From assembly GCA_017994695.1 (NCBI GenBank), contig JAGOKF010000037.1:1-35421 (forward strand): DNA of 35,421 nt, written 5' to 3'. This document shows, piece after piece, positions 5,304 to 18,990 of the stretch. The notes beneath the pieces are model-generated. The model had not been told where the DNA came from. It saw only the letters and a program-made list of their open reading frames with translations, and searched no databases. Within the stretch, counting starts at the first letter, position 1. The number at the start of each line of letters is the position of its first letter. The position numbers and the translations under genes were made by a program. The stretch comes from Myxococcota bacterium. Lineage in GTDB: Bacteria > Myxococcota_A > UBA9042 > DTJE01.

Positions 5304-5729
5304 TCAGGCCACCGCGGCCTTCCGCTTCTCGACGCCCGCCAGGATCCGCTCGATGGTCTCGACCAGCCGGTCGAACTTCACCGGTTTCTCCAGCAGTGCG
5401 TCGGCGGGCCACTCGTTGCCCAGCACGAACTGGAAGGCGTCCATCCGGTCGGACAGGTGTTCCTGGAAGGACGACAGGATGATCACCGGCAGGCCCTTCC
5501 ACTCGGCGTCCTCCCTCAACCGGTAGGCCAGCTGGAACCCCTCGGTGTCGTGGTCCATCATGACGTCCAGGACCAGCAGGTCCGGCCGAAAGTCCCGAAT
5601 CTTCGCGATCCCCTCGGTTCCGTTCCGCGCCCCCTCGGCGTCGAAGCCCCGGGCCCGCAGCAGGGCCGTCGTGGACTGCACCAGGTCCTCGTCGTCGTCG
5701 ATCACCAGGATCCGTCTCCGGTTGGCCAT
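5304..5729 (-). CDS. Single-domain response regulator (receiver only)
   Basis: A 141-residue CheY-like receiver with no output domain. The acidic pocket is IDDDED (11-15), the phospho-acceptor is Asp55 in LLVLDVMMDHDTEGF, and the conserved lysine is in LLEKPVKF. The ATG at 5729 is preferred over one seven codons upstream because GAGGAGG precedes it at normal spacing. The segment between the fourth strand and the KP motif is longer than in a standard receiver and contains the string WPADALLEKP. The receiver at 13012 has almost the same feature (WVPADAVLPKP), so the two are likely paralogues. A perfect Rex-type operator lies 74-91 bases upstream of the start, so expression should follow the NADH/NAD+ ratio. 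Partner kinase and target are unknown; the hydrogenase-linked kinases nearby are obvious candidates. Confidence 0.92.
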   Translation of the reverse strand: MANRRRILVIDDDEDLVQSTTALLRARGFDAEGARNGTEGIAKIRDFRPDLLVLDVMMDHDTEGFQLAYRLREDAEWKGLPVIILSSFQEHLSDRMDAFQFVLGNEWPADALLEKPVKFDRLVETIERILAGVEKRKAAVA

Positions 5730-5802
5730 GGCTCCCTCCTCGTCGGGCATCGCCCGATCTTCCGCACCCCGCCGTCCGCGCCCGCATCCGGCGGCCCTTC
5801 AA

Positions 5803-5820
5803 CTGTGAATAGTTTCACAG
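5803..5820. promoter_or_regulatory. Rex operator upstream of the receiver gene
   Basis: CTGTGAATAGTTTCACAG is an 18-bp palindrome with perfect seven-base arms (CTGTGAA/TTCACAG) around four bases. It matches the established Rex-box pattern TTGTGAAnnnnTTCACAA except for the outermost pair. It lies between rex and the minus-strand receiver gene, where it would control that gene's own promoter. Confidence 0.85.
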
Positions 5821-5853: not shown

Positions 5854-6507
5854 TCATTCCCTCTCCCGGCTCAGGAACGACAGCATCTCCAGTTTGGCCG
5901 AGATGTCCACGTCCTCGACGTGCACTCCCTCCGGCGCGACGATGCGCCGCGGGACGAAGTTCAGGATCGATCGGACCCCCGCTCGGACCAGCCGGTCCAC
6001 CACGTCCTCGACGCCGACCGGACCGCAGGCCAGCACCGCGATGCGCGCCCCGTGGGACGGCAGGACCGCCTCGATCTCCTCGACGGCATGGCAGCGGCGT
6101 CCCGCGTACACCCGCCCCGCCTTCTCCGGGTCGTTGTCGAACACCACCCCGATCCGGAACCCCCGGTCCTCGAAGCCCCGGTAGGTCAGCAGCGTCCGTC
6201 CCAGGTTGCCGAGCCCCACGAGGGCGACGGCCTGAGGCCGGTCCGTGCCCAGCAGGCGTCCGATGGTCACGGACAGGCCGTGCACCTCGTACCCGCGACT
6301 GACGGACCCGAACGAACCGAAGATGGACAGGTCCCGGCGCAACTGGGCGGGGTGGACCCCGGCCAGGGCGGCCAGCCGGTGCGAGAAGACGGTCTCCACG
6401 CCCTCGGCCTGCAGGGCGGCCAGCACCTTCCGGTAGATCGTCAGGCGCTCGATGGTCTGCCGCGGCACGCGGGTCGCCGATCGCGCCTTGTCCGACCGGG
6501 GAGCCAT
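5854..6507 (-). CDS. rex: Redox-sensing transcriptional repressor Rex
   Basis: A 217-residue protein of typical Rex length. The N-terminal winged helix contains VHPAQLRRDLSIFG (51-64), the DNA-recognition region, followed by FGSVSRGYEV. The C-terminal Rossmann domain carries GLGNLG (98-103) and VVFDNDPEKAG for NAD(H) binding. Rex proteins bind their operators when NADH is low and release them when NADH rises. The ATG at 6507 is chosen because a GGAGGAGGGA site precedes it; upstream in-frame ATGs lack this and add non-conserved sequence. The gene is transcribed away from the hydrogenase operon across a shared 184-base region holding two Rex-type sites, so it probably regulates itself and the hydrogenase. 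Confidence 0.96.
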   Translation of the reverse strand: MAPRSDKARSATRVPRQTIERLTIYRKVLAALQAEGVETVFSHRLAALAGVHPAQLRRDLSIFGSFGSVSRGYEVHGLSVTIGRLLGTDRPQAVALVGLGNLGRTLLTYRGFEDRGFRIGVVFDNDPEKAGRVYAGRRCHAVEEIEAVLPSHGARIAVLACGPVGVEDVVDRLVRAGVRSILNFVPRRIVAPEGVHVEDVDISAKLEMLSFLSRERE

Positions 6508-6545
6508 TCCCTCCTCCGATCCCGGCTCCCGCCGGGCCATCCATG

Positions 6546-6563
6546 CTGTTACTACTTTCACAC
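6546..6563. promoter_or_regulatory. Degenerate Rex operator over the rex promoter
   Basis: CTGTTACTACTTTCACAC keeps the same 7-4-7 spacing as the two perfect sites. It matches five of seven bases in the left arm and six of seven in the right. It overlaps the proposed -10 region of rex, which would fit weaker autoregulation. The lower match makes it less certain than the other two. Confidence 0.55.
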
Positions 6564-6578
6564 CAGGCATGCTGTCAA
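6550..6578 (-). promoter_or_regulatory. Proposed rex promoter
   Basis: On the minus strand a perfect TTGACA (-35) occupies 6578-6573. The -10 position 17-18 bases downstream reads GTAGTA or TAGTAA, a poor match. The start codon is about 45 bases further on. The perfect -35 and the overlapping Rex-like site support the call. Confidence 0.5.
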
Positions 6579-6609
6579 GAGGGAATTTGCGTCCACTGAA
6601 TTTTCCACC

Positions 6610-6638
6610 TTGACAGACGGCGGGTTTGAATGCATGCT
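6610..6638 (+). promoter_or_regulatory. Proposed promoter of the hydrogenase operon
   Basis: A perfect TTGACA lies at 6610-6615. CATGCT at 6633-6638 follows after a 17-base spacer and could serve as a weak -10, with TG just upstream. The Rex operator at 6648-6665 would fall on the first transcribed bases, a position suited to repression. Confidence 0.5.
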
Positions 6639-6647
6639 TGCTGCTGG

Positions 6648-6665
6648 CTGTGAAATAGTTCACAG
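6648..6665. promoter_or_regulatory. Rex operator of the hydrogenase operon
   Basis: CTGTGAAATAGTTCACAG has perfect seven-base inverted arms around ATAG, the same architecture as the site at 5803. It ends 26 bases before the preferred start of the first hydrogenase gene. [FeFe]-hydrogenase genes are known Rex targets in several anaerobes, so this is a strong prediction. Confidence 0.9.
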
Positions 6666-6691
6666 TCAGCGTGAAGCGACGGGAGGCCAGG

Positions 6692-7159
6692 GTGGAAAGC
6701 CGAATCGACGAGATCCTGGGACGTCATCCCAAGGCCGGGCGGGACGCGCTGATCCCGATCCTGCAGGAGATCCAGGAGGAGGAGGGCTACCTGTCCCGCG
6801 AGGCGATCCGGCGGGTCGCCCGCCACCTCTCCCTTCCGCCCAGCAAGGTGTTCGGGGTCGCGACGTTCTACAACCAGTTCCGCTTCCAGCGGCGCGGCAC
6901 CTACCACGTCCAGGTCTGCCGGGGGACCGCCTGCCACGTCCGCGGATCGGCCGCGGTGCTGGACGCCCTCCGGCGGGCCCTGAAGATCGAACCCGGGGAG
7001 ACCACCCGGGACGGGATGTTCAGCCTGGAGGTCGTCGCCTGCATCGGCGCCTGCGGGCTGGCGCCCGTCATCGCGATCAACGGGGAATTCCACGCGGGCG
7101 TCACCCCCGACAAGGTCAACGCCATCCTGAATTCCTGCAAGCGGAGGACCGCGGCATGA
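6692..7159 (+). CDS. hydC: HydC: NuoE-like [2Fe-2S] subunit of NAD-dependent [FeFe]-hydrogenase
   Basis: A 155-residue thioredoxin-like ferredoxin of the complex I 24-kDa (NuoE) family. The N-terminal helical part (ESRIDEILGRHP...) is followed by the [2Fe-2S] ligands in CRGTAC and CIGAC. GTG at 6692 is preferred over GTG at 6671: GGGAGG lies five bases before it, whereas the upstream GTG sits only six bases after the Rex operator and has no ribosome site. The subunit passes electrons within the soluble HydABC complex. The gene overlaps hydB by ATGA, which indicates translational coupling. Confidence 0.93.
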   Translation: MESRIDEILGRHPKAGRDALIPILQEIQEEEGYLSREAIRRVARHLSLPPSKVFGVATFYNQFRFQRRGTYHVQVCRGTACHVRGSAAVLDALRRALKIEPGETTRDGMFSLEVVACIGACGLAPVIAINGEFHAGVTPDKVNAILNSCKRRTAA

Positions 7160-9129
7160 ACACCCATCGAGACCCCTTTCGGCCCGAGGATCTGCCCCGG
7201 GCGGAACTCCTGGCCCTTCTGGCCGGCGGCGGGCCGGGCCCCGGGGACCCCGGGCGGCAGCGCCTCGAGGACGCGATGCGGCGCCTTCGTCGCGAAGACG
7301 TCCCGCGGCCGACGATCTTCGTCGGGACGGGAACCTGCGGCCTGGGCGCCGGGGCGGGACGGACACTGGAGCGGCTGCGGGCGCTGCTGGGCGAGCAGGC
7401 CATCGATGCCGACGTGGTCGAGGTGGGCTGCATCGGCCTGTGCTCCTTCGAGCCGATGGTGGACGTCCAGCTCCCCGGCCGCCCCCGGCTGTCCTTCGGC
7501 AAGGTGGGCCCCAGGGACGTCGAGGCGGTGGTCCTGGGCGCCTTGGCCGGGCAGGTCGCCGCGGACCGCGTGCTGTACCAGTTCCGCGGCGACGGCCTCG
7601 ACCCCTGGGAAGGCGTGATGTTCCAGGACGAGCACCCGTTCTTCGCCCCCCAGAAGCGGTGGGTCCTGAAGAACTGCGGCATCATCGACCCCTCCCGCAT
7701 CGACGAGTACCTGGCCCGTGGGGGATACGCGGCCTTCGCCCGCACGATTCGGAGCCTCACGCCCCCCGAGCTCTGCGACCTGGTCGAACGGTCGGGCCTC
7801 CGCGGGCGGGGCGGAGGGGGCTTCCCGACGGGCACCAAGTGGAAGGCCGCGCTGCAGTCCCAGGGCGACCGGAAGTACCTGGTGTGCAACGCCGACGAGG
7901 GCGACCCCGGGGCGTTCATGGACCGCGCCGTCGTCGAGGGCGACCCCCACCGGCTGCTGGAGGGCATGGCGATCGCCGCCTACGCCATCGGGGCATCGAA
8001 GGCCTACGTCTACATCCGGGCCGAGTACCCCCTGGCGGTGGCGCGGCTGCACGAGGCGATCCGCCAGGCCAGGTCCTGGGGCTTCCTGGGCCGGGACATC
8101 CTGGGGAGCGGCGTGGACCTGGAGATCGCCGTCAAGCAGGGCGCCGGGGCCTTCGTCTGCGGCGAGGAGACCGCCCTGCTGCACAGCATCGAGGGGCGCC
8201 GGGGCATGCCGCGGCCGCGGCCCCCGTACCCGGCCGTGTCCGGCCTGTGGGGAAAGCCGACGGTGATCAACAACGTCGAGACCCTGGCCAACCTGCCCGG
8301 ACTGCTGGACCTCGGGGCCGAGGGATTCGCGGCCGTCGGCACCCCGGGCAGCAAGGGCACCAAGGTCTTCGCGCTGTCGGGCAAGGTGGTCCGCACGGGC
8401 CTGGTGGAGGTCCCGATGGGCACGACGCTGCGGCAGATCGTGTTCGACGTGGGAGGGGGGGTCCCCGACGGACGGGCCTTCAAGGCGGTCCAGATCGGAG
8501 GCCCCTCGGGAGGCTGCATCCCCGACTCCGAGATGGACACGGAGATCGACTACGAGTCGCTGAAGAAGGTCGGCGCGATGATGGGGTCCGGCGGCCTGGT
8601 CGTGATGGACGAGACCACCTGCATGGTGGACCTGGCCAAGTACTTCATGGACTTCATCCAGCGGGAATCCTGCGGGAAATGCATCCCCTGCCGGGAGGGC
8701 ACCCGGCGCATGCTGGAGATCCTGCAACGGATCACCCGCAGCCGGCGCGACGAGAAGGAACACGAGGCGCTGGCCCGCTTCCAGGGGGTCATGTACCTGG
8801 AGCGGCTGGCGGGGGTCATCCAGGACACGTCGCTCTGCGGGCTGGGCCAGTCGGCGCCGAACCCGGTCCTGTCCACCCTGCGATGGTTCCGGGAGGAGTA
8901 CGAGGAGCACGTGTTCGAGCGGAAGTGCCGGGCCGGGGCGTGCACCGGGTTGCTGACCTTCTCCATCGATCCCGAGACCTGCAACGGCTGCGGGCTCTGC
9001 GCCCGGTCCTGTCCGGCGGGAGCGATCCTGGGCGCGCCCCGGTCGCCGCACTACATCGTGCCGGACAAGTGCATCGCCTGCGGCCAGTGCCGGACCGAGT
9101 GCCGGCACCACGCGGTGAAGGTGGCGTGA
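7156..9129 (+). CDS. hydB: HydB: NuoF-like NADH/FMN subunit of bifurcating [FeFe]-hydrogenase
   Basis: 657 residues. An N-terminal thioredoxin-like [2Fe-2S] region carries GTGTCG and VGCIGLC. The NuoF core follows with the glycine-rich NADH/FMN loop GRGGGGFPTGTKW (217-229) and the [4Fe-4S] ligands Cys506, Cys509, Cys512 and Cys561. Two more [4Fe-4S] motifs close the protein: Cys609/612/615/619 and Cys639/642/645/649. This layout, longer than NuoF, is that of HydB in trimeric electron-bifurcating hydrogenases, where NADH and reduced ferredoxin are oxidised together to make H2, or the reverse. A bifurcating role is inferred from the subunit set and architecture. The start is the ATG overlapping the hydC stop. 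Confidence 0.93.
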   Translation: MNTHRDPFRPEDLPRAELLALLAGGGPGPGDPGRQRLEDAMRRLRREDVPRPTIFVGTGTCGLGAGAGRTLERLRALLGEQAIDADVVEVGCIGLCSFEPMVDVQLPGRPRLSFGKVGPRDVEAVVLGALAGQVAADRVLYQFRGDGLDPWEGVMFQDEHPFFAPQKRWVLKNCGIIDPSRIDEYLARGGYAAFARTIRSLTPPELCDLVERSGLRGRGGGGFPTGTKWKAALQSQGDRKYLVCNADEGDPGAFMDRAVVEGDPHRLLEGMAIAAYAIGASKAYVYIRAEYPLAVARLHEAIRQARSWGFLGRDILGSGVDLEIAVKQGAGAFVCGEETALLHSIEGRRGMPRPRPPYPAVSGLWGKPTVINNVETLANLPGLLDLGAEGFAAVGTPGSKGTKVFALSGKVVRTGLVEVPMGTTLRQIVFDVGGGVPDGRAFKAVQIGGPSGGCIPDSEMDTEIDYESLKKVGAMMGSGGLVVMDETTCMVDLAKYFMDFIQRESCGKCIPCREGTRRMLEILQRITRSRRDEKEHEALARFQGVMYLERLAGVIQDTSLCGLGQSAPNPVLSTLRWFREEYEEHVFERKCRAGACTGLLTFSIDPETCNGCGLCARSCPAGAILGAPRSPHYIVPDKCIACGQCRTECRHHAVKVA

Positions 9130-9187
9130 CGGCTGTGCCCGCGGGCGGATCCGGATCCGCCGGGGCGGCACCGAAGGGAGGTTCCAG

Positions 9188-10906
9188 ATGACCATCACGG
9201 TCAACGACAGGGAGATCGAGGCGAAGCCCGGCGAGATGCTGCTGGCCGCCATGCAGCGTGCCGGCATCCGGGTCCCCACCCTCTGCGCGATGGAGGGACT
9301 GCTGCCCACCGGCGCCTGCCGGATGTGCGTGGTCGAGGTCGAGGGGATGCGCGGCCTGGTGCCGTCCTGCGCCTTCCCGGTCCGCGAGGGCATGAAGGTG
9401 CAGACGCACTCCCAGCGGGCGGTCCGGGCACGCAAGACCATCGTCGAACTGCTGCTGGCGAACCACCCGGACGACTGCCTCTACTGCAGCCGCAACGGCA
9501 ACTGCCGGCTCCAGGACCTCGCCGGCGAACTGGGCGTCCGGCAGCGCCGCTACCAGGGGGATCGCCTGCGGCAGCGGCTGGACATGTCCTCTCCGTCCAT
9601 CGTGCGCGACCCGGAGAAGTGCATCCTGTGCGGCAAGTGCGTGCGCGTGTGCGAGGAGATCCAGTCGGTCGCGGCCATCGACTTCGTCGGGCGGGGATCG
9701 AGGACGCAGGTGGCCCCGGCCTTCCATGCGGGCCTGAACGTGTCCTCCTGCGTGGACTGCGGCCAGTGCATCCTGGCGTGTCCCACCGGGGCCCTGGCCG
9801 AGCAGAGCCACTTCAAGGACGTGTTCGACGCCATCCGGGACCCCGGGAAGGTGGTCGTGGTGCAGCACGCGCCGGCGGTGTCGGTGACCATCGGGGAGAT
9901 GTTCGGGACGCGACCCGGGGTGGACGTCGCGGGAGTGCTGAACGCGGCATTGCGCCGCCTGGGCTTCGACTACGTGTTCGACACCTCGTTCGCGGCCGAC
10001 CTGACCGTCCTGGAGGAGGCGAACGAACTGGTCCACCGGATCCGGGACGGCGGCGCTCTGCCGCTGGTGACCTCGTGCTGCCCGGCATGGGTGGACTTCG
10101 CCGAGCAGGAGTTCCCGGACCTGCTGCCGCACCTGTCGTCCTGCAAGAGCCCCCAGCAGATGCTGGGCGCGGTGCTGAAGTCCTGCTTCGCGAAGCGGCT
10201 GAACGTGGCCCCCGGGGACCTGTTCGTGGTGTCGGTGATGCCGTGCACGGCCAAGAAGTTCGAGGCGTCCTCCCCCGAACGCCGCCATGGCGGCCTGCCG
10301 GACGTGGACGCCGTGCTGACCACCCGGGAACTGGCCCGCATCATCCGGATGCGGGGCCTGGACCTGCGGGACATGGCGGCGGAACCGCCGGACACCCCCT
10401 TCGGCGAGCGATCCTCGGCGGGGAAGATGTTCGGCGCGTCGGGCGGCGTGCTGGAGGCGGCCCTCCGGACCGCGCACTTCCTGCTGACGGGGAATGAGAT
10501 GGAGGCGTCGAAGGCGAGGGAGATCCGCGGCCTGCAGGGCGTCAAGGAGGCCCGCGTCCGGATCGGCGGGACGAGCCTGGGCGTGGCCGCCGTGTCGGGA
10601 CTCGGGAACGCCCGGCGGCTGATGCAGGAGGTGCGGGAGGGCCGGCGGGACCTGGCCATGATCGAGGTGATGGCCTGTCCAGGGGGCTGCGTGAACGGCG
10701 GCGGCCAGCCCATCGGCGCGGACCTCGAGGCGGTGCGGGCCCGCATGAAGGCGCTCTACGACATCGACCGCGACTCGAGCCTCCGGGCCTCCCACGCCAA
10801 TGCGCTGGTGCAGCGGCTGTACGACGAGGAACTCGGCGCGCCGGGCAGTGAGCGGGCCCACGAACTGCTGCACACGGGGTACCGGCCGCGCCAGGCGGAG
10901 GTTTGA
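9188..10906 (+). CDS. hydA: HydA: catalytic [FeFe]-hydrogenase subunit
   Basis: 572 residues. Electron-relay clusters in order: plant-type [2Fe-2S] (Cys33, 44, 47, 61), a His-Cys [4Fe-4S] site (His93, Cys97, 100, 106), and two [4Fe-4S] clusters (Cys145/148/151/155 and Cys188/191/194/198). The H-domain has all three canonical signatures: TSCCPAW (295-301, with the proton-relay second Cys at 298), MPCTAKKFE from 351, and MACPGGC from 495 followed by VNGGGQP. This is a complete group A (M3-type) enzyme. It lacks the C-terminal [2Fe-2S] extension of the Thermotoga HydA. GGGAGG precedes the ATG. The maturases HydE, HydF and HydG needed for the H-cluster must be encoded elsewhere. Confidence 0.97.
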   Translation: MTITVNDREIEAKPGEMLLAAMQRAGIRVPTLCAMEGLLPTGACRMCVVEVEGMRGLVPSCAFPVREGMKVQTHSQRAVRARKTIVELLLANHPDDCLYCSRNGNCRLQDLAGELGVRQRRYQGDRLRQRLDMSSPSIVRDPEKCILCGKCVRVCEEIQSVAAIDFVGRGSRTQVAPAFHAGLNVSSCVDCGQCILACPTGALAEQSHFKDVFDAIRDPGKVVVVQHAPAVSVTIGEMFGTRPGVDVAGVLNAALRRLGFDYVFDTSFAADLTVLEEANELVHRIRDGGALPLVTSCCPAWVDFAEQEFPDLLPHLSSCKSPQQMLGAVLKSCFAKRLNVAPGDLFVVSVMPCTAKKFEASSPERRHGGLPDVDAVLTTRELARIIRMRGLDLRDMAAEPPDTPFGERSSAGKMFGASGGVLEAALRTAHFLLTGNEMEASKAREIRGLQGVKEARVRIGGTSLGVAAVSGLGNARRLMQEVREGRRDLAMIEVMACPGGCVNGGGQPIGADLEAVRARMKALYDIDRDSSLRASHANALVQRLYDEELGAPGSERAHELLHTGYRPRQAEV

Positions 10907-10961: not shown

Positions 10962-12965
10962 GTGACGGGCACGCTGGCGAAGCCTCTGGTCACCACGATC
11001 CGTGAGCGCTGCCGGGTCTGCTACGGGTGCGTCCGGGAGTGCCCCGCGAAGGCAATCCGGATCCGCGGGGGGCAGGCGGAGGTCATGCCCGACCGGTGCA
11101 TCGGCTGCGGCAACTGCGTGCAGGTGTGCAGCCAGAAGGCCAAGCAGGTCCGGGACAGTCTCCCCGAGGTCGAGGCGATCCTGTCAGAGGGCAGGCCGGT
11201 CTCGATCCTGGTGGCTCCCTCGTTCCCGGCGGAGTTCTGGGAGGTTCCCTGGCGGCGGTTCGTCGGCATGCTGCGAGCGGCGGGGTTCACCTACGTCCAC
11301 GAGGTGGCCTTCGGCGCCGACCTGGTGTCGGACCGCTACCGGAGGCTGCTGGACGGCGCCGCCGGGCGCAAGTACGTGGCCACGACCTGTCCGGCCCTGG
11401 TCGAGTACGTCCAGCGCTACTTCCCGCACCTGGTCGGGTCCCTGGCACCGATCGTGTCGCCGATGGTGGCGACGGCCCGGGTGGTCCGGCGCCTCCACGG
11501 GGACGGCGTGCCCTCGGTGTTCGCCGGGCCGTGCATCGCGAAGAAGGCGGAAACCGAGACCTTCGCCCGGGGCGAGGTGGCCGCGGCGCTGACGTTCGCC
11601 GAGCTGCGGGACCTGCTGGCGCGGCGCGGGGTGCGGCCGGAGAACGCGGCGGATTCCGATTTCGATCCGCCCCACGGCGGCATCGGGGGGCTGTACGCGA
11701 TCAGCGGCGGGTTGCTGAAGGCCTCCGAGGTGGACAGCGACCTGGTGGATGCCGAGGGAGTGGCCGCCGACGGGCACCAGCGCTTCGTGGAGGCCGTGAA
11801 GGAGTTCGAGGCGGGGGCGATCCCGGCGGCGCTGCTGGAGGTGCTGGCCTGCCAGGGATGCGTGATGGGACCCGGCATGACCACCCGGGTGCCCCGGTTC
11901 ACCCGGCAGGCCGCCGTGGCCCGGTACGTGAAGGACCGGGCGCGGGCCCTGGACGACTCGGCATGGCGCTCCGCGATGCAGCGGTACGACGGACTGGACC
12001 TGTCGAGGGGGTTCATGCCCGACGACCGCCGGCTTCCCGGTCCCACCCGGGAGGAGGTTCTGTCGATCCTCTCCCGCATGGGCAAGGAACGCCCCGAGGA
12101 CGAGTTGAACTGCGGTGCGTGCGGGTACGCGACCTGCGTCGAGCACGCGATCGCGATCCACCAGGGCCTGGCCGAGAGCGAGATGTGCCTGCCGTGGACG
12201 ATCGACCGGCTCCGGACCACGGTGACGGAACTCCACGAATCGCATCGGCAACTGGCCAGCACCCAGGACGCGCTGGTCCATGCCGAGAAACTCGCCAGCA
12301 TGGGGCAGCTGGCGGCGGGCATCGCCCACGAGGTGAACAACCCCCTGGGCGTCGTGCTGATGTACGCCCACCTGCTGGCCGACGAAGCGCCGAAGGATTC
12401 CCAGTTGCACGCGGACCTGAAACTGATCGCGGAGCAGGCCGATCGGTGCAAGCGGATCGTGTCGGGCCTTCTGAACTTCGCCCGGCAGAACCAGGTGAAC
12501 CTCCAGCCGGTGAACGTGCGGGATTTGGTGGACGCGGCCCTGCGGGGCATCCGGCGGCCCGAGGGCGTCCAGGTCCGCGTCGAACACGCCTCGGTCGATC
12601 CCGTGGCGGAACTGGACCGCGACCAGGTGCTCCAGGTGCTGACCAACGTGATGGTGAACGCCATCGAGGCGATGCCCGACGGCGGCACGCTGACGGTGCG
12701 GACGGGTGGCGACGAGGAACGGGTGGTGTTCGAGGTGGCCGACACGGGCACGGGGATCCGGCCCGAGCACATGGGGAAGATCTTCACGCCGTTCTTCACG
12801 ACGAAGCCCATGGGGCGCGGGACGGGCCTCGGCCTCGCGGTGTCCTACGGCATCGTGAAGATGCACCGGGGCGAGATCTCGGCGACCTCGAACGCGGACC
12901 CGGCCGCGGGCCCGACCGGGACGACCTTCACGATCCGGATGCCCCGGCGCGGGCCCGCCGACTGA
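10962..12965 (+). CDS. Sensory [FeFe]-hydrogenase fused to a histidine kinase
   Basis: 667 residues. Domains: a two-[4Fe-4S] ferredoxin (Cys17/20/23/27 and 46/49/52/56); a hydrogenase H-domain with altered loops (ATTCPALVEY with Cys143, GPCIAKKAE with Cys191, LACQGCVMGPG with Cys297 and 300); an RnfB-type Fe-S domain (Cys384, 387, 392, 409); and a histidine kinase with His456 in AHEVNNPLG plus the ATP-binding boxes DTGTGI and GTGLGL. The four cysteines expected to hold the H-cluster are present. The proton-relay Cys of TSCCP and the CxxxC of loop 3 are not. This matches the sensory (group C-like) [FeFe]-hydrogenases, thought to report H2 or redox state rather than turn over H2 quickly. The GTG start has GGGAGGAG before it. 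It is cytoplasmic, with no membrane segment seen. Confidence 0.93.
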   Translation: MTGTLAKPLVTTIRERCRVCYGCVRECPAKAIRIRGGQAEVMPDRCIGCGNCVQVCSQKAKQVRDSLPEVEAILSEGRPVSILVAPSFPAEFWEVPWRRFVGMLRAAGFTYVHEVAFGADLVSDRYRRLLDGAAGRKYVATTCPALVEYVQRYFPHLVGSLAPIVSPMVATARVVRRLHGDGVPSVFAGPCIAKKAETETFARGEVAAALTFAELRDLLARRGVRPENAADSDFDPPHGGIGGLYAISGGLLKASEVDSDLVDAEGVAADGHQRFVEAVKEFEAGAIPAALLEVLACQGCVMGPGMTTRVPRFTRQAAVARYVKDRARALDDSAWRSAMQRYDGLDLSRGFMPDDRRLPGPTREEVLSILSRMGKERPEDELNCGACGYATCVEHAIAIHQGLAESEMCLPWTIDRLRTTVTELHESHRQLASTQDALVHAEKLASMGQLAAGIAHEVNNPLGVVLMYAHLLADEAPKDSQLHADLKLIAEQADRCKRIVSGLLNFARQNQVNLQPVNVRDLVDAALRGIRRPEGVQVRVEHASVDPVAELDRDQVLQVLTNVMVNAIEAMPDGGTLTVRTGGDEERVVFEVADTGTGIRPEHMGKIFTPFFTTKPMGRGTGLGLAVSYGIVKMHRGEISATSNADPAAGPTGTTFTIRMPRRGPAD

Positions 12966-13011
12966 CTGTGCGGCGGGGAATCGTGCCTCGCCGCGACGCG
13001 GAGGAACTGCG

Positions 13012-13404
13012 ATGCCTGCAAGAACGATCCTGCTGGTGGACGACGACCCCGACTTCCTGGAACAGACTGCGGTCCGACTGCAGTCCGACGGCTTCGAGGT
13101 GGTGACGGCCGACAGCCAGGCCCAGGGGGAGGCGGTGCTGGCCGGGGGAACCCGGTTCGACCTGGCGATCCTGGACCTGATGATGGAGCACCCCGATTCC
13201 GGTTTCGTGCTGGGACACCGGGTGCGGAAGACCCGTCCCGGGACGCCGATCCTCCTGGTGACCGGGGTGACCGGAGAGACGGGCCTGGAGTTCGACGCGG
13301 CCACCGTCGAGGAGCGGCGCTGGGTTCCCGCCGACGCCGTGCTGCCGAAACCGGTGCGCTACGAGCAGTTGAAGTCCGAGGTGGACCGGCTGCTGGCCGG
13401 GTGA
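13012..13404 (+). CDS. Single-domain response regulator in the hydrogenase operon
   Basis: 130 residues, receiver only. The acidic pocket is VDDDPD (9-14), the phospho-acceptor is Asp55 in ILDLMMEHPDSGF, and the conserved lysine is in VLPKPVRY. A GGAGGAA site precedes the ATG. It lies 46 bases after the hydrogenase-kinase gene and 76 bases before the receiver-kinase hybrid, so it is the likely first phosphate acceptor from that kinase. It shares an LDxMMxH motif and a W-PADA-L-KP segment with the receiver at 5304-5729. No DNA-binding or enzymatic output domain is attached. Confidence 0.92.
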   Translation: MPARTILLVDDDPDFLEQTAVRLQSDGFEVVTADSQAQGEAVLAGGTRFDLAILDLMMEHPDSGFVLGHRVRKTRPGTPILLVTGVTGETGLEFDAATVEERRWVPADAVLPKPVRYEQLKSEVDRLLAG

Positions 13405-13480
13405 CCGAGAGCCCGCCAGCCTTTGGGGCGGTTCCAACCGCCGGATGGCTGGCCGGGTTCCTTCGCCGAGGAGGAGGCCC

Positions 13481-14605
13481 ATGGACACCCTGCGCGTGCT
13501 GGTCGTGGACGACGAGGCCGGGATCCGCATGGCGGTCGAGCGCGCCCTCCGGACCTTCACGATCCGGCTGCCCGACGTGGGGGCCGAGTTCGGACTGACC
13601 TTCCAGGAGGCCGCCTCGGGCGAGGAGGCCCTGGAGGCCATCCGGCAGTCCGCGCCGGACATCCTGCTGCTGGACTACAAGATGCCCGGCATCTCGGGCC
13701 TGGACCTGATGGACCGCCTCCGGGCCGACGGGATCGACATCCTGACCATCGTCATCACCGCCTACGCGTCCCTGGAGACGGCCGTCGCGGCCACCAAGCG
13801 CGGCGGCTTCGACTTCCTGGCCAAGCCCTTCGCGCCGGACGAACTGAAGTCCGTGCTGTTCAAGGCGGCCAAGCACCTGGTCGTCCAGCGAGAGGCGCGG
13901 CGGCTGGCCGAGGAGCGCAAGCGCGTCCGGTTCGAACTGCTGTCGGTGGTCGCCCACGAGATGAAGGCGCCGACCGCGGCCATCGAGAACTACCTGCGCA
14001 TGATGCAGGACCGCGTGCTGGGCGAGGATCTGTCCGCCTACGACCGCCCGATCTCCCGGGCGATCGCACGCCTGGAGGGCATGCGGAAACTGGTCACGGA
14101 CCTGCTGGACCTGACCCGCATCGAGTCGGGGAGCAAGGCGCGCAACGTCGTGGACCTGGACGTCCGCGAGGTGGCCGCCGCGGCTGTCGAGAATGCCCGC
14201 GAACTGGCGACGGACCAGGGCATCTCGGTCGAACTGGCCCCGGGCCCCGCGGTCCCGATGCGGGCCGACCGCGGGGAGATCGAACTGATCCTGAACAACC
14301 TGCTGTCCAACGCGGTCAAGTACAACCGGGACCACGGCCGTGTGGACGTGTCCGTCGCCCGGCAGGACGGGGCCGTCGTGCTGACGGTCCGGGACACGGG
14401 CATCGGCATGACCGCCGAGGAGTGCGGCCGCCTGTTCGGGGAGTTCGTGCGGATCAAGAACGAGAAGACCCGCTTCATCGAGGGCAGCGGCCTGGGCCTG
14501 TCGATCGTCCGGAAACTGGTCCACCTCTACGGTGGCGAGGTGACCGTGGCCAGCACCCCGGACGTGGGCTCCACGTTCACCGTCACGCTGCCCGTTCCCG
14601 GGTAG
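13481..14605 (+). CDS. Receiver-histidine kinase hybrid
   Basis: 374 residues. An N-terminal receiver (VVDDE at 8-12, Asp65 in LLLDYKMPG, KPF lysine) has a roughly ten-residue insertion (around LPDVGAEFG) between the first helix and second strand. A dimerisation domain follows with His159 in VVAHEMKAP, then an HATPase domain with N-box NNLLSNAVKYN, DTGIGM and GSGLGLSIV. Such proteins read the phosphorylation state of their receiver and control their own kinase. The chosen ATG has GAGGAGGAGG upstream; an in-frame ATG 12 codons earlier lacks this. It is cytoplasmic, with no sensory domain besides the receiver, so it probably acts downstream of the hydrogenase-kinase in a phosphorelay. Its own target is not in the window. 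Confidence 0.92.
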   Translation: MDTLRVLVVDDEAGIRMAVERALRTFTIRLPDVGAEFGLTFQEAASGEEALEAIRQSAPDILLLDYKMPGISGLDLMDRLRADGIDILTIVITAYASLETAVAATKRGGFDFLAKPFAPDELKSVLFKAAKHLVVQREARRLAEERKRVRFELLSVVAHEMKAPTAAIENYLRMMQDRVLGEDLSAYDRPISRAIARLEGMRKLVTDLLDLTRIESGSKARNVVDLDVREVAAAAVENARELATDQGISVELAPGPAVPMRADRGEIELILNNLLSNAVKYNRDHGRVDVSVARQDGAVVLTVRDTGIGMTAEECGRLFGEFVRIKNEKTRFIEGSGLGLSIVRKLVHLYGGEVTVASTPDVGSTFTVTLPVPG

Positions 14606-14841: not shown

Positions 14842-17800
14842 ATGAACCGTCGACTGTGGTCCCTGGTTCCCCTGCTGGCCGCGGCCTTCTCCTGCGGGGA
14901 CGCCTCGCAGGACGCCGCATCGGAACGCATCGGCCCCGAGGGAGGGACGCTGGTCCTTCCGGGCGGCGGACGGCTGACGGTGCCCCCCGGGGCGCTGTCC
15001 CGGCCCACCGAACTGCGGGCCCGGACATCGGACGCCCCGGCGAACGCCGGTTTCTCGGCCGCCGGTCCCTTCCACCGGTTCGACCCCGAGGGGTTGACCT
15101 TCGCGATCCCGGCAGAACTGGCCGTGCCGTTCCAGGCCGCCGGGGTCCCGGCCGGGCGCCTGGGAATCGCCTGGAGCACCGACGGCTCGACCTGGGAACG
15201 GCTCTCCTCCTCCCTGGACCCCGCGACCGGGGAGATCCGGGCGTCGATCCGGCATTTCTCGCTGGGCGGACCCGCCGCCTGGGATGCCGAGGCCCCGGTC
15301 TGCTGCGACCTGCCGGACGCGGATCCCGTCGAGACGACCACCGGGGCCTGCACCGAGGAAGGGGGCGAGATCCTGGGAGGCCCCGAGGTCTGCCGGAAGG
15401 TCTGCTGCACCGTCGATCGTCCCGCCGGAACCGAGGTCTCGGTGACCGCCCGGGGCGCCTGCGACCGGATCGCCGCGGAGAATCCGATGCTGGCCGTCGA
15501 CGCGGACCCGGACACGGACGCCTGCACGACCTGCTGCGCCGATGACTGGACGAAGAAGAAGGTCTCCCTGTGCCGCCGCACGAGCCCCTTCGTCCAGGAC
15601 TGCGATCCGGCCTGCTGCGAGATCGGGGGGATGACGAGGATCCTCCCGGCCGGGCGGTGCGCCGCCGAGGGCGGCACCCAGTCGGGCCCTCCCGAGACCT
15701 GCTCGGTCTGCTGCGCCGACGATTGGGCCGTGAAGGCGACGGGCGAGTGCCAGCGGCAGGCCTCAAGTCCGGACCTGTGCGAGCCGGCCTGCTGCCGCAT
15801 GGGGGCGGACCTGGACGTGTACCGGAAGGGCGACTGCATGGACGAGGGAGGCACCGCGGTGGGCGGGCCCGAGGCCTGCCAGCCGGTCTGCTGCGAGGAC
15901 CTGGACGGGGAGGTCGCGGTGCGCAAGAAGGCGGACTGCGACGCATGGAAGGCCGCCCACCCGGGCCACTCGGTCGTCGAGCGTTCCGACCCCGAGGCGT
16001 GCGACGCCTGCTGTCCCGACGACTGGACGATCAAGCACGCGAGCGAGTGCCGCCAGCCGGCCCTCTTCGGCTCCGAGTGCGACCCGGTGTGCTGCCACGT
16101 CGAGGGCCTTCTTCCGACCCCGGAACCCCAGGGGCGGTGCCGGATCAAGGAAGGGCAGGCCGGATCGGAGCCGGCGACCGAGTGCGGGTGTCGGGACGAA
16201 GCCGAGTGCCGGGCCCTGGACGCGGACCCGGCGGACTGCATGTCCTGGCGATGCGAGGACTTCCGCTGCGTGCCCGCGGTGGAAATCGACGGCAAGCCCT
16301 GCGAGGACGGCGATCCCTGCACCCGCACCGACGAGTGCCAGGACGGCACCTGCCGCGGCCAGGCGGTCCTCTGCCTGGAGCCGCCGGGCCTGGCCGATTG
16401 CTTCGAGGGATCCTGCGACCGGACCTCCGGCGAGTGCACCTACCGCCTTCGCGGCGGCGCCGCCTGCGGCCGGGACCCGGATTGTCCGGAGGGCCATGCC
16501 TGCGAGGCCTGCCAGTGCCGGTTCGTCTGCACGGCCGACGAACAGTGCCCCGACGAGGACCCCGGGGACTGCCGGGTGCCCGACTGCGACTACGGCCGGT
16601 GCCGGATGGTCCCTGCCGACCCCGAGTCCCCGTGCGACGACGGCGACGACTGCACCGGCCAGGACCGCTGCGTCGCCGGAGGCCTCTGCCAGGGAACGCC
16701 CTACCCGGAGGGCCAGTGTCCGGTCTGCTGCGCGGCGACCTGGACGGTGACCGAGCAGCGCCTGTGCCCCGACCCCCTCGACCGGCGGCGCGTCCGGGAC
16801 TGCGACACCGCCTGCTGCCGCCAGGGGTCCGGGGTGGTCTTCGTCCCCGAGGGACGCTGCTGGGACGAGGGCGGCGAGGCGATCCCCATGGCCGAGTGTC
16901 CGGCCTGCCTCGAGGACGAGCAGTGCTGGGAGAAGGACCCGAATCCCCGGGACTGCATGACGCTGTGGTGCGTGGACTCCCAGTGCGTGCCCGGTCCCGA
17001 GGGGCGCAACAAGTCCTGCGACGACGGCGATCCATGCACCGTCCAGGACGAGTGCGACGGCCGGGGGACATGCGCCGGCCAGACCGTGACCTGCGACGCA
17101 TCGCCCTTCCACCCGGCCTGCCAGGAGGGGCCGGGGTTCTGCCGGGAGGGACGGTGCGTGTACCAATCGAAGGTCCCCGGCACGCCCTGCGGGTCTTCCG
17201 ACCCCTGCTTCGCCGACCTCTGCGATGCCGACGGATCCTGCGTGAGCACCTTCCGGTGCCCGAGCCTGCCGGAACCCTGCGCGGTCCCGATCTGCCTGGG
17301 GTCCCCGGGCTACGGGCAGTCCTGCGGGTTCGACTACTCGGCCTGCCCGGAGGTCTGCTGCGACCGGGGCGGACGGGACTACGAGATGGTCCCTCTGGAT
17401 CGCTGCACGCCTCCGGCAACCGGGTCCATCGTCGGCGTGGACAGCGCCTGCGAGCGGGTCTGCTGCCAGGAGGGTCCGGAGGAGTGGCGGATGCGCACCC
17501 AGGGGAAATGCCTGGCCACCGGGGGCACCCCCACCGTGACGGACTTCTGCCAGCAGGTGTGCTGCAGCCTGCCGGAGGGATTCCTGGACGTCCCCCTGGG
17601 GCAGTGCTGGCTGCACGACGGGAACGTGATGCCGGACGCCACCCTCTGCGACGAGGTCTGCTGCGAGGACCGAAACGGGTTCGAAACGACCAGCCGGGCC
17701 GAGTGCCTGTTGGCGCGCGGCACCATCCTGGAGGTCGCGACCCCCTGCGAACCGGTCTGCTGCATCGACGGGCAGCAGGCGACCCTCGTGGCTCGGGGCA

Positions 17801-18990
17801 TGTGCAACCCACCGGCCCAGGCCCACGACGATCCCTTCCCGTGCCTTCCCGGGTGCTGCAACGTCCAGGGGGACGACTTCCGGGTGATGGCCAGGGGCGT
17901 CTGCACGAACCTCGGGGGCCAGATCGTCGCCGATGCCCAGTGCGAACCGGTCTGCTGCCGCCTCGGGGAGGAGACCGAGGGCCGGACGGCCGGGGCCTGC
18001 CAGGTCCTGGGCGGCATGCCCGATCCCTCCCGGGTCCTCTGCGACGGGACCTGCTGTGAGGAGCCCCGGAATGCCTGCCTGAAGGCCGCCTGCGTGAACG
18101 GATCGTGCGCGGAGGTGATCCGGGACGGGGCGACCTGCGCCCGGCACCAGGACTGCGGACCCGGAGAGGCATGCTCCTTCCAGTGCGGCTGCGTGCCGCG
18201 CCTGGGTCCCGGCACCTCCCCGGGCCAGGAGGCCGTCAACCCCGTCGACGGAGCCCCGGTGGTGTGGGTGCCCGCCGGCCCGTTCCTGGCCGGGCTCACC
18301 GATGCCCAGGGACAGGTCCTCTGGGAGTGGTACTGGCAACCGGGCATGAACGGTCCCCAGGTGGAGATCACGCTCACGGAGGGCTTCTGGATCTACCAGC
18401 ACGAGGTCACTGTGGAACGCTACCGGAGGTTCACCGAGATCTCCGGGGCCGAAATGCCCCAGACCCCTCCCTGGGGATGGCTGGACCAGGGACCCATCCA
18501 CAACGGAGTCCCCTGGTACTGGGCAAACGAGTACGCCCTTCGGGCCGGCGGCGAACTTCCGACGAACGCCCAGTGGGAGAAGGCCGCCCGGGGAACCGAC
18601 GGCCGGGCCTTCCCCTGGGGGGAAGCCTACGCCCCCGGGCTGGCGGCCGACTGGTCCGCGGGCCGGGTGGGACCCCCGAACATCGGCCCGGCCCCGGTGG
18701 GCTCCTTCCCCCAGGATCGCAGTCCCTACGGCATGTTGGACGCGGCCGGCAACGTGACGGAATGGATGCGGGACGCGTCGCCGGCCCCGGGGGACGACTA
18801 CTCGGACGTCGCCCCCGTGGACCCCGTGGGCCAGGTGGGGGGCAACAGCCTCTATTGCCGGGGCGGGGACTGGGTCACCTACTCGCCGACCGGGGTGTCG
18901 GGCACCCCTGCCCGCTACTCCACCGGCGTCTGGGCCCAGGGACCCACGAACCTCGGCTTCCGCTGCGTGATCGTGCCGGAACCCCGGTAG
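14842..18990 (+). CDS. Giant exported Cys-rich protein: ZU5-like domain, double-Cys repeats, FGE-like domain
   Basis: 1,382 residues. The N-terminus MNRRLWSLVPLLAAAFSCGD looks like a lipoprotein or secretion signal; the lipobox AFSC is not ideal. Residues ~30-150 resemble a ZU5-type domain (GPEGGTL, VPPGALS, PEGLTFAIP). From about 153 to 1075 the chain is a long run of Cys-Cys doublets (19 counted) mixed with three DGDxC-type repeats (for example CEDGDPCTRTDEC). Residues ~1133-1382 resemble the formylglycine-generating-enzyme/sulfatase-modifying fold (VWVPAGPF, LPTNAQWEKAARG, AFPWGE, GNVTEW, RGGDW, LGFRC). GGGAGG precedes the ATG. Many disulfides are expected, so an extracytoplasmic location is likely. 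The function is unknown; a surface or adhesive role is only a guess. Confidence 0.88.
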   Translation: MNRRLWSLVPLLAAAFSCGDASQDAASERIGPEGGTLVLPGGGRLTVPPGALSRPTELRARTSDAPANAGFSAAGPFHRFDPEGLTFAIPAELAVPFQAAGVPAGRLGIAWSTDGSTWERLSSSLDPATGEIRASIRHFSLGGPAAWDAEAPVCCDLPDADPVETTTGACTEEGGEILGGPEVCRKVCCTVDRPAGTEVSVTARGACDRIAAENPMLAVDADPDTDACTTCCADDWTKKKVSLCRRTSPFVQDCDPACCEIGGMTRILPAGRCAAEGGTQSGPPETCSVCCADDWAVKATGECQRQASSPDLCEPACCRMGADLDVYRKGDCMDEGGTAVGGPEACQPVCCEDLDGEVAVRKKADCDAWKAAHPGHSVVERSDPEACDACCPDDWTIKHASECRQPALFGSECDPVCCHVEGLLPTPEPQGRCRIKEGQAGSEPATECGCRDEAECRALDADPADCMSWRCEDFRCVPAVEIDGKPCEDGDPCTRTDECQDGTCRGQAVLCLEPPGLADCFEGSCDRTSGECTYRLRGGAACGRDPDCPEGHACEACQCRFVCTADEQCPDEDPGDCRVPDCDYGRCRMVPADPESPCDDGDDCTGQDRCVAGGLCQGTPYPEGQCPVCCAATWTVTEQRLCPDPLDRRRVRDCDTACCRQGSGVVFVPEGRCWDEGGEAIPMAECPACLEDEQCWEKDPNPRDCMTLWCVDSQCVPGPEGRNKSCDDGDPCTVQDECDGRGTCAGQTVTCDASPFHPACQEGPGFCREGRCVYQSKVPGTPCGSSDPCFADLCDADGSCVSTFRCPSLPEPCAVPICLGSPGYGQSCGFDYSACPEVCCDRGGRDYEMVPLDRCTPPATGSIVGVDSACERVCCQEGPEEWRMRTQGKCLATGGTPTVTDFCQQVCCSLPEGFLDVPLGQCWLHDGNVMPDATLCDEVCCEDRNGFETTSRAECLLARGTILEVATPCEPVCCIDGQQATLVARGMCNPPAQAHDDPFPCLPGCCNVQGDDFRVMARGVCTNLGGQIVADAQCEPVCCRLGEETEGRTAGACQVLGGMPDPSRVLCDGTCCEEPRNACLKAACVNGSCAEVIRDGATCARHQDCGPGEACSFQCGCVPRLGPGTSPGQEAVNPVDGAPVVWVPAGPFLAGLTDAQGQVLWEWYWQPGMNGPQVEITLTEGFWIYQHEVTVERYRRFTEISGAEMPQTPPWGWLDQGPIHNGVPWYWANEYALRAGGELPTNAQWEKAARGTDGRAFPWGEAYAPGLAADWSAGRVGPPNIGPAPVGSFPQDRSPYGMLDAAGNVTEWMRDASPAPGDDYSDVAPVDPVGQVGGNSLYCRGGDWVTYSPTGVSGTPARYSTGVWAQGPTNLGFRCVIVPEPR
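15298..18060 (+). repeat. Tandem double-cysteine repeat region inside the giant protein
   Basis: Nineteen Cys-Cys doublets recur at about 30-60-residue intervals except where the DGDxC-type repeats intervene, most often as xxVCC or xPACC. A frequent unit reads: CC, about 10-15 residues, GxC, then EGG or similar, then a further Cys and the next VCC. Four units begin CC followed by ADDW, PDDW or AATW (near 15540, 15717, 16018 and 16735). The repeats are diverged at DNA level apart from the recurring GTCTGCTGC, which indicates old duplication rather than recent slippage. Confidence 0.8.

Follow-up and report, generated by a model that had tools for sequence, protein, structure and literature searches.

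We examined a 35,421-nucleotide stretch of a Myxococcota bacterium genome (contig JAGOKF010000037.1; called the window below) in which the genes of a predicted [FeFe] hydrogenase, HydABC, are followed by genes for a hydrogenase-like protein fused to a histidine kinase (HydS-HK), a receiver-only protein (RR1) and a receiver-kinase hybrid (RRHK). Comparison of gene neighbourhoods in related genomes shows that two halves of this set separate: RRHK tracks HydS-HK, and RR1 tracks HydABC. That RR1 is retained with the enzyme genes when the kinases are gone points to the enzyme, rather than DNA, as the target of the signal. Our preferred but tentative reading, a little short of an even chance, is that the HydS-HK signal would end on HydABC through protein contact by RR1; we infer both the H2 signal and the contact.

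RR1 (above 140 bits) is present at 62 of the 64 HydS-HK loci with an adjacent HydA, and at the two exceptions (L070 and L085) a more distant RR1-family member occupies the same place. At HydS-HK loci without an adjacent HydA, RR1 was found in 0/9 and RRHK in 8/9. Whole-genome searches of four genomes whose HydS-HK lies apart from HydA (G004, G006, G007 and G008) placed the best RR1-family member directly behind the distant hydA. G006 (C78; 1-bp hydA/RR1 overlap) and G007 (C131; 35-bp gap, HydS-HK some 12 kb upstream) both have the order hydC-hydB-hydA-RR1 and lack a nearby kinase gene; in G004 and G008 (C16 in each) RRHK comes after RR1 behind hydA. G001 carries an ordinary HydA-HydS-RR1 cluster on another contig, and the whole-genome searches gave no clear RR1 (best 34-47 bits) in G002, G003 and G009, where every HydA is a more distant one of about 50% identity or less. 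RR1-family genes also stand beside HydABC without HydS-HK or RRHK at L121, L122 and L087. A HydA fragment in frame with RR1, accompanied by tandem partial RR1 copies, was seen at L123 (2429-4368); we rejected this apparent fusion as contact evidence because the repeated partial copies on the contig make an assembly or remnant artefact likely. An earlier note on the window had listed an unlinked regulator, contact with the hydrogenase or with Rex, and return through the hybrid kinase as endpoints of the signal; the finding that RR1 tracks HydABC favours contact with the hydrogenase, and the NtrC-type regulators linked in a few relatives count against it.

The same gene order and conserved extra genes were sought in relatives, as the earlier note had advised. 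With HydS-HK as query, the genome collection yielded 80 full-length relatives at 49-74% identity (tblastn list) from Myxococcota, Planctomycetota, Acidobacteriota, Latescibacterota, Neomarinimicrobiota, Bacteroidota, Elusimicrobiota, Hydrogenedentota, Actinomycetota and other phyla. Gene calling on the relative loci gave Rex-hydC-hydB-hydA-HydS_HK-RR1-RRHK in most of them, with two variants: RR1 sometimes lies between hydA and HydS_HK, and Rex lies behind RRHK in Bacteroidota. Because full-length relatives at this level of identity keep the order in so many phyla, the gene set is by this comparison far beyond chance. Maturase-like genes lie 3' of the operon in many relatives (HydE was recognised by its start sequence, HydG and HydF likewise). 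A conserved extra output-domain gene was considered and rejected: clustering of the downstream genes gave only the maturase-like genes, a few TM1266-like genes, Rex and lineage-specific NtrC.

The three signaling genes of the window follow hydCBA on the plus strand with gaps of 55, 46 and 40 bp (Table 1), and on these grounds hydCBA (6671-10906), HydS-HK, RR1 and RRHK are likely one operon. Gene positions and Pfam calls agree with the earlier note, which had the operon continue past HydABC. Its claim that no protein of the set has an output domain also holds: besides HydS-type domains, Pfam and NCBIfam find only receiver, HisKA and HATPase domains in HydS-HK, RR1 and RRHK. Rex and a second receiver-only protein, RR0, both on the minus strand, form a unit divergent from the hyd operon. 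Right after the operon (14842-18990) lies the gene of a long Cys-rich protein with a C-terminal formylglycine-generating-enzyme-like domain.

Table 1. Features of the window and RR1-family receivers in [NiFe] operons (positions in the window unless a locus is named).
Feature	Position	Strand	Description
HydS-HK	10962-12965	+	667 aa; 2x[4Fe-4S], Fe_hyd_lg_C (1.8e-37), FeS PF04060, HisKA, HATPase_c (Pfam)
RR1	13012-13404	+	130 aa; Response_reg alone (Pfam); phospho-site Asp55
RRHK	13445-14605	+	386 aa; likely start ATG 13481; Response_reg, HisKA, HATPase_c; Asp77, His171
HydA	9188-10906	+	Group A [FeFe]-hydrogenase catalytic subunit (Pfam); NCBIfam group A6 model above cut-off
HydB	7156-9129	+	NuoF-like; two C-terminal [4Fe-4S] motifs and GGPSG; start approximate
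HydC	6671-7159	+	NuoE-like [2Fe-2S] subunit (Pfam)
Rex repressor	5854-6663 (limits of open reading frame)	-	True start probably near 6505; Pfam, NCBIfam
RR0	5304-5750	-	Another receiver-only member of the RR1 superfamily; behind Rex
Rex-like palindrome CTGTGAAATAGTTCACAG	6648-6665	+	Upstream of hydC
Rex-like palindrome CTGTGAATAGTTTCACAG	5803-5820	+	Upstream of RR0
RR1-family receivers within [NiFe] operons	L114 6537-6950; L120 5843-6253; L118 5738-6118		FlpD/Vhu-like and Hox-like

RR1 can probably be phosphorylated, since its receiver residues D10-D12, D55 and K113 are conserved. Within the tight family, conservation reaches 95% or more at six further, RR1-specific residues (T90, G91, F94, W104, A107 and R116); they fall in the beta4-to-alpha5 region, where receivers usually have their output face. 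In the RR1 model (predicted local distance difference test score, pLDDT, 92.7) T90-A107 lies between beta4 and beta5, with the block 91-100 at 66; we take this segment to be longer than in typical receivers. A fold search with the model returned ordinary receivers only, and no curated family scored above its cut-off for RR1. It is quite improbable that RR1, instead of being an output, feeds back on HydS-HK or RRHK, inhibiting or draining them in the manner of Caulobacter FixT. FixT is likewise a single-domain receiver with no output domain, encoded beside a gas- or redox-sensing kinase, and demonstrates that such receivers can directly inhibit their own sensor kinase (PMC7078487); the RR1 gene, too, usually lies between two kinase genes. 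However, FixT binds an Fe-S cluster through four Cys and inhibits its kinase, whereas RR1 has no cysteine at all, hence no such motif, and follows the enzyme instead of the kinase, being found beside the kinase-less HydABC of L121, L122 and L087 and missing beside HydS-HK/RRHK pairs without HydABC.

The association of this receiver family with hydrogenases extends beyond the operon. The own genome has three [FeFe] loci (the window, C143 and C144), and its four best RR1-like receivers are RR1 and RR0 in the window and one each at the other two. The C143 locus (L086, G000 C143, 1746-11352) is a second full set with HydABC, HydS-HK, a receiver and a PAS-containing receiver-kinase; its HydB carries a GltD-like FAD/NAD domain at the C terminus, and the next gene along encodes a Ser/Thr protein kinase. 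At C144 (L087, 6077-10121) an RR1-type receiver lies directly 5' of a hydC-hydB-hydA set that belongs to another class, and the stretch read contains no histidine kinase gene. Of the 30 strong RR1-family members (115 bits or more) in 141 genomes of the phylum, 23 have an [FeFe] domain within 6 kb, as do 0 of the 45 weaker receivers checked. Among the seven exceptions are three without a linked hydrogenase (one in G143, two in G045) and two, G046 C4 and G070 C38, outside the neighbourhoods read. The remaining two show the same receiver type with an unrelated hydrogenase class: identified by Pfam in L114 and by matching protein starts in L120, they share an operon with genes for FlpD/MvhD and a [NiFe] hydrogenase of Vhu-like type. 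In G088 the last gene of a Hox-like [NiFe] operon encodes a weaker family member (100 bits).

The sequence features of a phosphorelay (phospho-His, ATP boxes, and receiver Asp, acidic pocket and Lys) are intact in HydS-HK, RR1 and RRHK; in RRHK the receiver residues D22-23, D77 and K127 and the kinase His171 are conserved. Distance-matrix partial correlation was 0.48 between the HydS kinase and the RRHK receiver, compared with 0.56 for HydA and HydC, and 0.34 between the RRHK kinase and HydB. Interface mutual information was weak; of the four pairs tested, HydS-HK with the RRHK receiver was the only one to rise above random column sets (P 0.006). HydS-HK probably signals to the RRHK receiver, the correlations being hints and not proof. 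Covariation at the interface between the dimerization and histidine phosphotransfer (DHp) helices and the receiver was dropped as a partner predictor, having little power with an almost invariant DHp helix; mirror-tree correlation was too weak to choose a partner for RR1.

Several observations weigh against direct action of RR1 on the enzyme. Co-travelling genes need not touch, and RR1 could serve a partner encoded elsewhere. The partial correlations of RR1 are weak with HydA (0.10) and the RRHK receiver (0.18) and absent with the HydS kinase (0.01), and no RR1 pair among the four tested exceeded random column sets in mutual information. The count of 23 of 30 strong family members near an [FeFe] domain is partly circular, since hydrogenase-linked receivers served to train the family model, and the three members in G143 and G045 have no linked hydrogenase. 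Finally, the place usually taken by Rex, divergent from hydC, is occupied by an NtrC-type regulator in the planctomycete loci L015, L019, L024, L039 and L072.

These planctomycete regulators also speak for the most serious rival, which we consider unlikely: the relay would end on an unlinked DNA-binding response regulator, most probably of the NtrC (sigma-54) type, and RR1 would be a phosphate sink or intermediate. AtoS and ZraS, two kinases with NtrC-type partners, match the kinase domain of HydS-HK most closely, and ZraS is its best solved match. No kinase stands beside the divergent regulator in L019, L039 and L072, and in L033 an NtrC/histidine kinase pair lies just upstream of HydS-HK. 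However, the regulators of L015 and L024, and those near L033 and L064, each have a kinase gene of their own, the other scorable clusters have Rex and no NtrC-type regulator, and this explanation does not account for the retention of RR1 beside kinase-less HydABC. The earlier note had held that an adjacent conserved output-domain regulator just outside homologous clusters would refute its proposal; in a few relatives such regulators do occur, in these five planctomycete loci and near L033 and L064. Most relatives have no linked output-domain response regulator, and the usual linked regulator is Rex (38 of 44 scorable clusters), which itself has no receiver domain. Output may be transcriptional in some lineages, and judging from these loci NtrC is not a conserved part of the cluster. 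We rank direct action on HydABC first, because RR1 follows the enzyme, and an unlinked NtrC-type regulator next. Two of the planctomycete loci also encode a receiver fused to a glycine-cleavage-H-like domain (L072 1273-2826 and L039 3850-5421), in L072 near HdrC-like genes.

We next consider what HydS-HK may sense. In the alignment of 81 sequences, the N-terminal [4Fe-4S] ligands (Cys 17, 20, 23, 27, 46, 49, 52 and 56) are kept in 77-81, consistent with two clusters, and Cys143, 191, 297 and 300 of the H-domain are invariant. The C-terminal Cx2Cx4Cx16C (Cys384-387-392-409), kept in 81/81, is the published signature of group C/D [FeFe] hydrogenases (PMC8163306). The P3 motif reads CxGC in 79 of 80 homologues, compared with CPGGC in HydA, and position 296, the canonical first P3 ligand, is Cys in 57/81 and Ala in the window protein. 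It is therefore less certain than the earlier note had claimed that HydS-HK senses H2: the four invariant H-domain Cys favour it, the altered P3 motif does not. The alternative, which we regard as rather unlikely and which is compatible with any of the outputs discussed, is an Fe-S redox sensor whose H-domain lacks the 2Fe subcluster. Besides the P3 changes, it is in line with the finding that P1-P3 were hardly found in group C1 proteins of Hydrogenedentota (PMC11406978). Against it stand, in addition to the invariant Cys, the match of the predicted fold to active [FeFe] hydrogenases, the maturase genes downstream of many operons, and the published binding of an H-cluster by the related HydS of Thermotoga and Thermoanaerobacter.

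The kinase boxes of HydS-HK are intact and conserved, with His456 as the phospho-His, and Pfam finds no PAS domain between the C-terminal cluster and the kinase. In the predicted structure a single helix, 410-475, runs from beside the ligand Cys409 to past His456 (mean pLDDT 88 for the model; the helix near His456 is less certain, with block means of 49-84). Among solved structures, [FeFe] hydrogenases and the ZraS kinase come closest in fold. Given the missing PAS domain and the continuous modelled helix, HydS-HK is not a strict member of the M2f subclass, which needs a PAS domain behind the C-terminal cluster. The linked histidine kinase of HydDB group C1 is present as fused HisKA and HATPase_c, as judged by domains. 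Second HydS proteins without a kinase domain are divergent from the Bacteroidota clusters (L074 2382-4268, L076 2312-4165 and L082 2373-4223, minus strand); those of L076 and L082 have lost the first P3 Cys (YHSGC and YHGGC).

The window HydABC is predicted to be an NAD-linked and probably bifurcating [FeFe] hydrogenase. NCBIfam classes HydA as group A6 (NADH-dependent), but the GGPSG and the two C-terminal [4Fe-4S] motifs of HydB point to a bifurcating enzyme by published criteria (PMC7311640). The features of a Rex regulon, a rex gene and a Rex palindrome at the operon, are present; only 1 of 100 shuffled controls gave two such sites, the number found in the window. Among the relative loci, 32/46 have a Rex-like site upstream of the first operon gene, against 0.9 expected from mononucleotide shuffles. 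The receiver that the earlier note had placed under Rex control nearby is RR0, which lies behind Rex with a Rex-like palindrome of its own, an arrangement also seen in G041 (L129). RR1 or RR0 might act on Rex and so join H2 sensing to the NADH-controlled promoter, as the linkage of Rex in 38 of the 44 clusters, the site of RR0 and the Rex sites upstream of most operons would allow. We consider this the least probable output, very improbable in fact: RR1 is kept without an adjacent Rex at L011, L015, L019, L024, L072, L121 and L122, and NADH sensing alone explains Rex.

The regulatory [NiFe] hydrogenase HoxBC-HoxJ-HoxA resembles HydS-HK in coupling a hydrogenase-like H2 sensor to a histidine kinase, but its hydrogenase is of an unrelated type, its kinase is a separate protein, and its output is DNA binding by HoxA, a regulator of the NtrC type (PMC5665086 deals with the sensor of Ralstonia); the window set has no linked cognate output-domain regulator of the classical two-component kind. 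Among [FeFe] enzymes, histidine-kinase-linked hydrogenases are already listed in HydDB as group C1, marked putative with an undetermined role. HydS-HK shares with TmHydS and TamHydS (HydDB C1/C3; PMC5037454, PMC10055695, PMC8163306) the 2x[4Fe-4S], the Cx2Cx4Cx16C, the place beside a group A hydrogenase and an H-domain without the proton-transfer Cys299; it differs in the kinase fused directly by a helix without PAS and in the CxxC spacing of P3. BfuT of the sub-type V BfuABC clusters of Hydrogenedentota, Calditrichota and Bacteroidota is also a HydS with a kinase domain beside HydABC, and the Bacteroidota clusters have a second HydS upstream (PMC11406978). The window has this arrangement, as compared by gene layout, and L033 comes from a genome named in that work, which mentions neither receivers nor a second kinase. 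Rex control of a HydABC operon headed by rex has been published for Caldithrix abyssi Cabys_3675-3679 (Rex site cTGTGAATCAATTCACAt; PMC5317091), where the passages on this operon present a Rex-controlled hydrogenase and do not discuss a signaling role. The earlier note's term "undescribed system" is thus too strong: the sensor fusion beside HydABC and the control by Rex are known. The receivers, their linkage and coupling to the enzyme and their presence in [NiFe] operons were not found in the open literature searched, which is weak evidence, as subscription papers lay outside it. How the signal travels onward from sensory [FeFe] hydrogenases is a stated open question (PMC8163306, PMC10055695, PMC13104023).

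We propose a two-component phosphorelay dedicated to an NAD-linked [FeFe] hydrogenase. H2 or the redox state would alter the H-domain and the C-terminal cluster, and Cys409 would relay the change along one helix to His456. The phosphoryl group would pass to Asp77 of the RRHK receiver and then, directly or via the RRHK kinase, to Asp55 of RR1. RR1 would be the output, altering the activity, assembly or electron routing of HydABC by direct contact through its conserved beta4-beta5 segment. Rex would set transcription by NADH/NAD+, such that the H2 branch acts fast on the enzyme and the NADH branch slowly on the promoter. More broadly, RR1 could belong to a family of receiver-only proteins that serve NAD-linked hydrogenases, [FeFe] HydABC and [NiFe] alike, as phosphorylation-switched accessory subunits, are fed by hydrogenase-like sensor kinases and gate electron flow post-translation, a generalization we hold with more doubt than the reading for HydABC itself. 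The sensor, the second kinase and the receiver occur as one widespread unit with the receiver tied to the enzyme. If phosphorylated RR1 binds HydABC and changes its rates, a two-component receiver would in this case gate a hydrogenase directly, which would be relevant to H2 balance in anaerobic communities.

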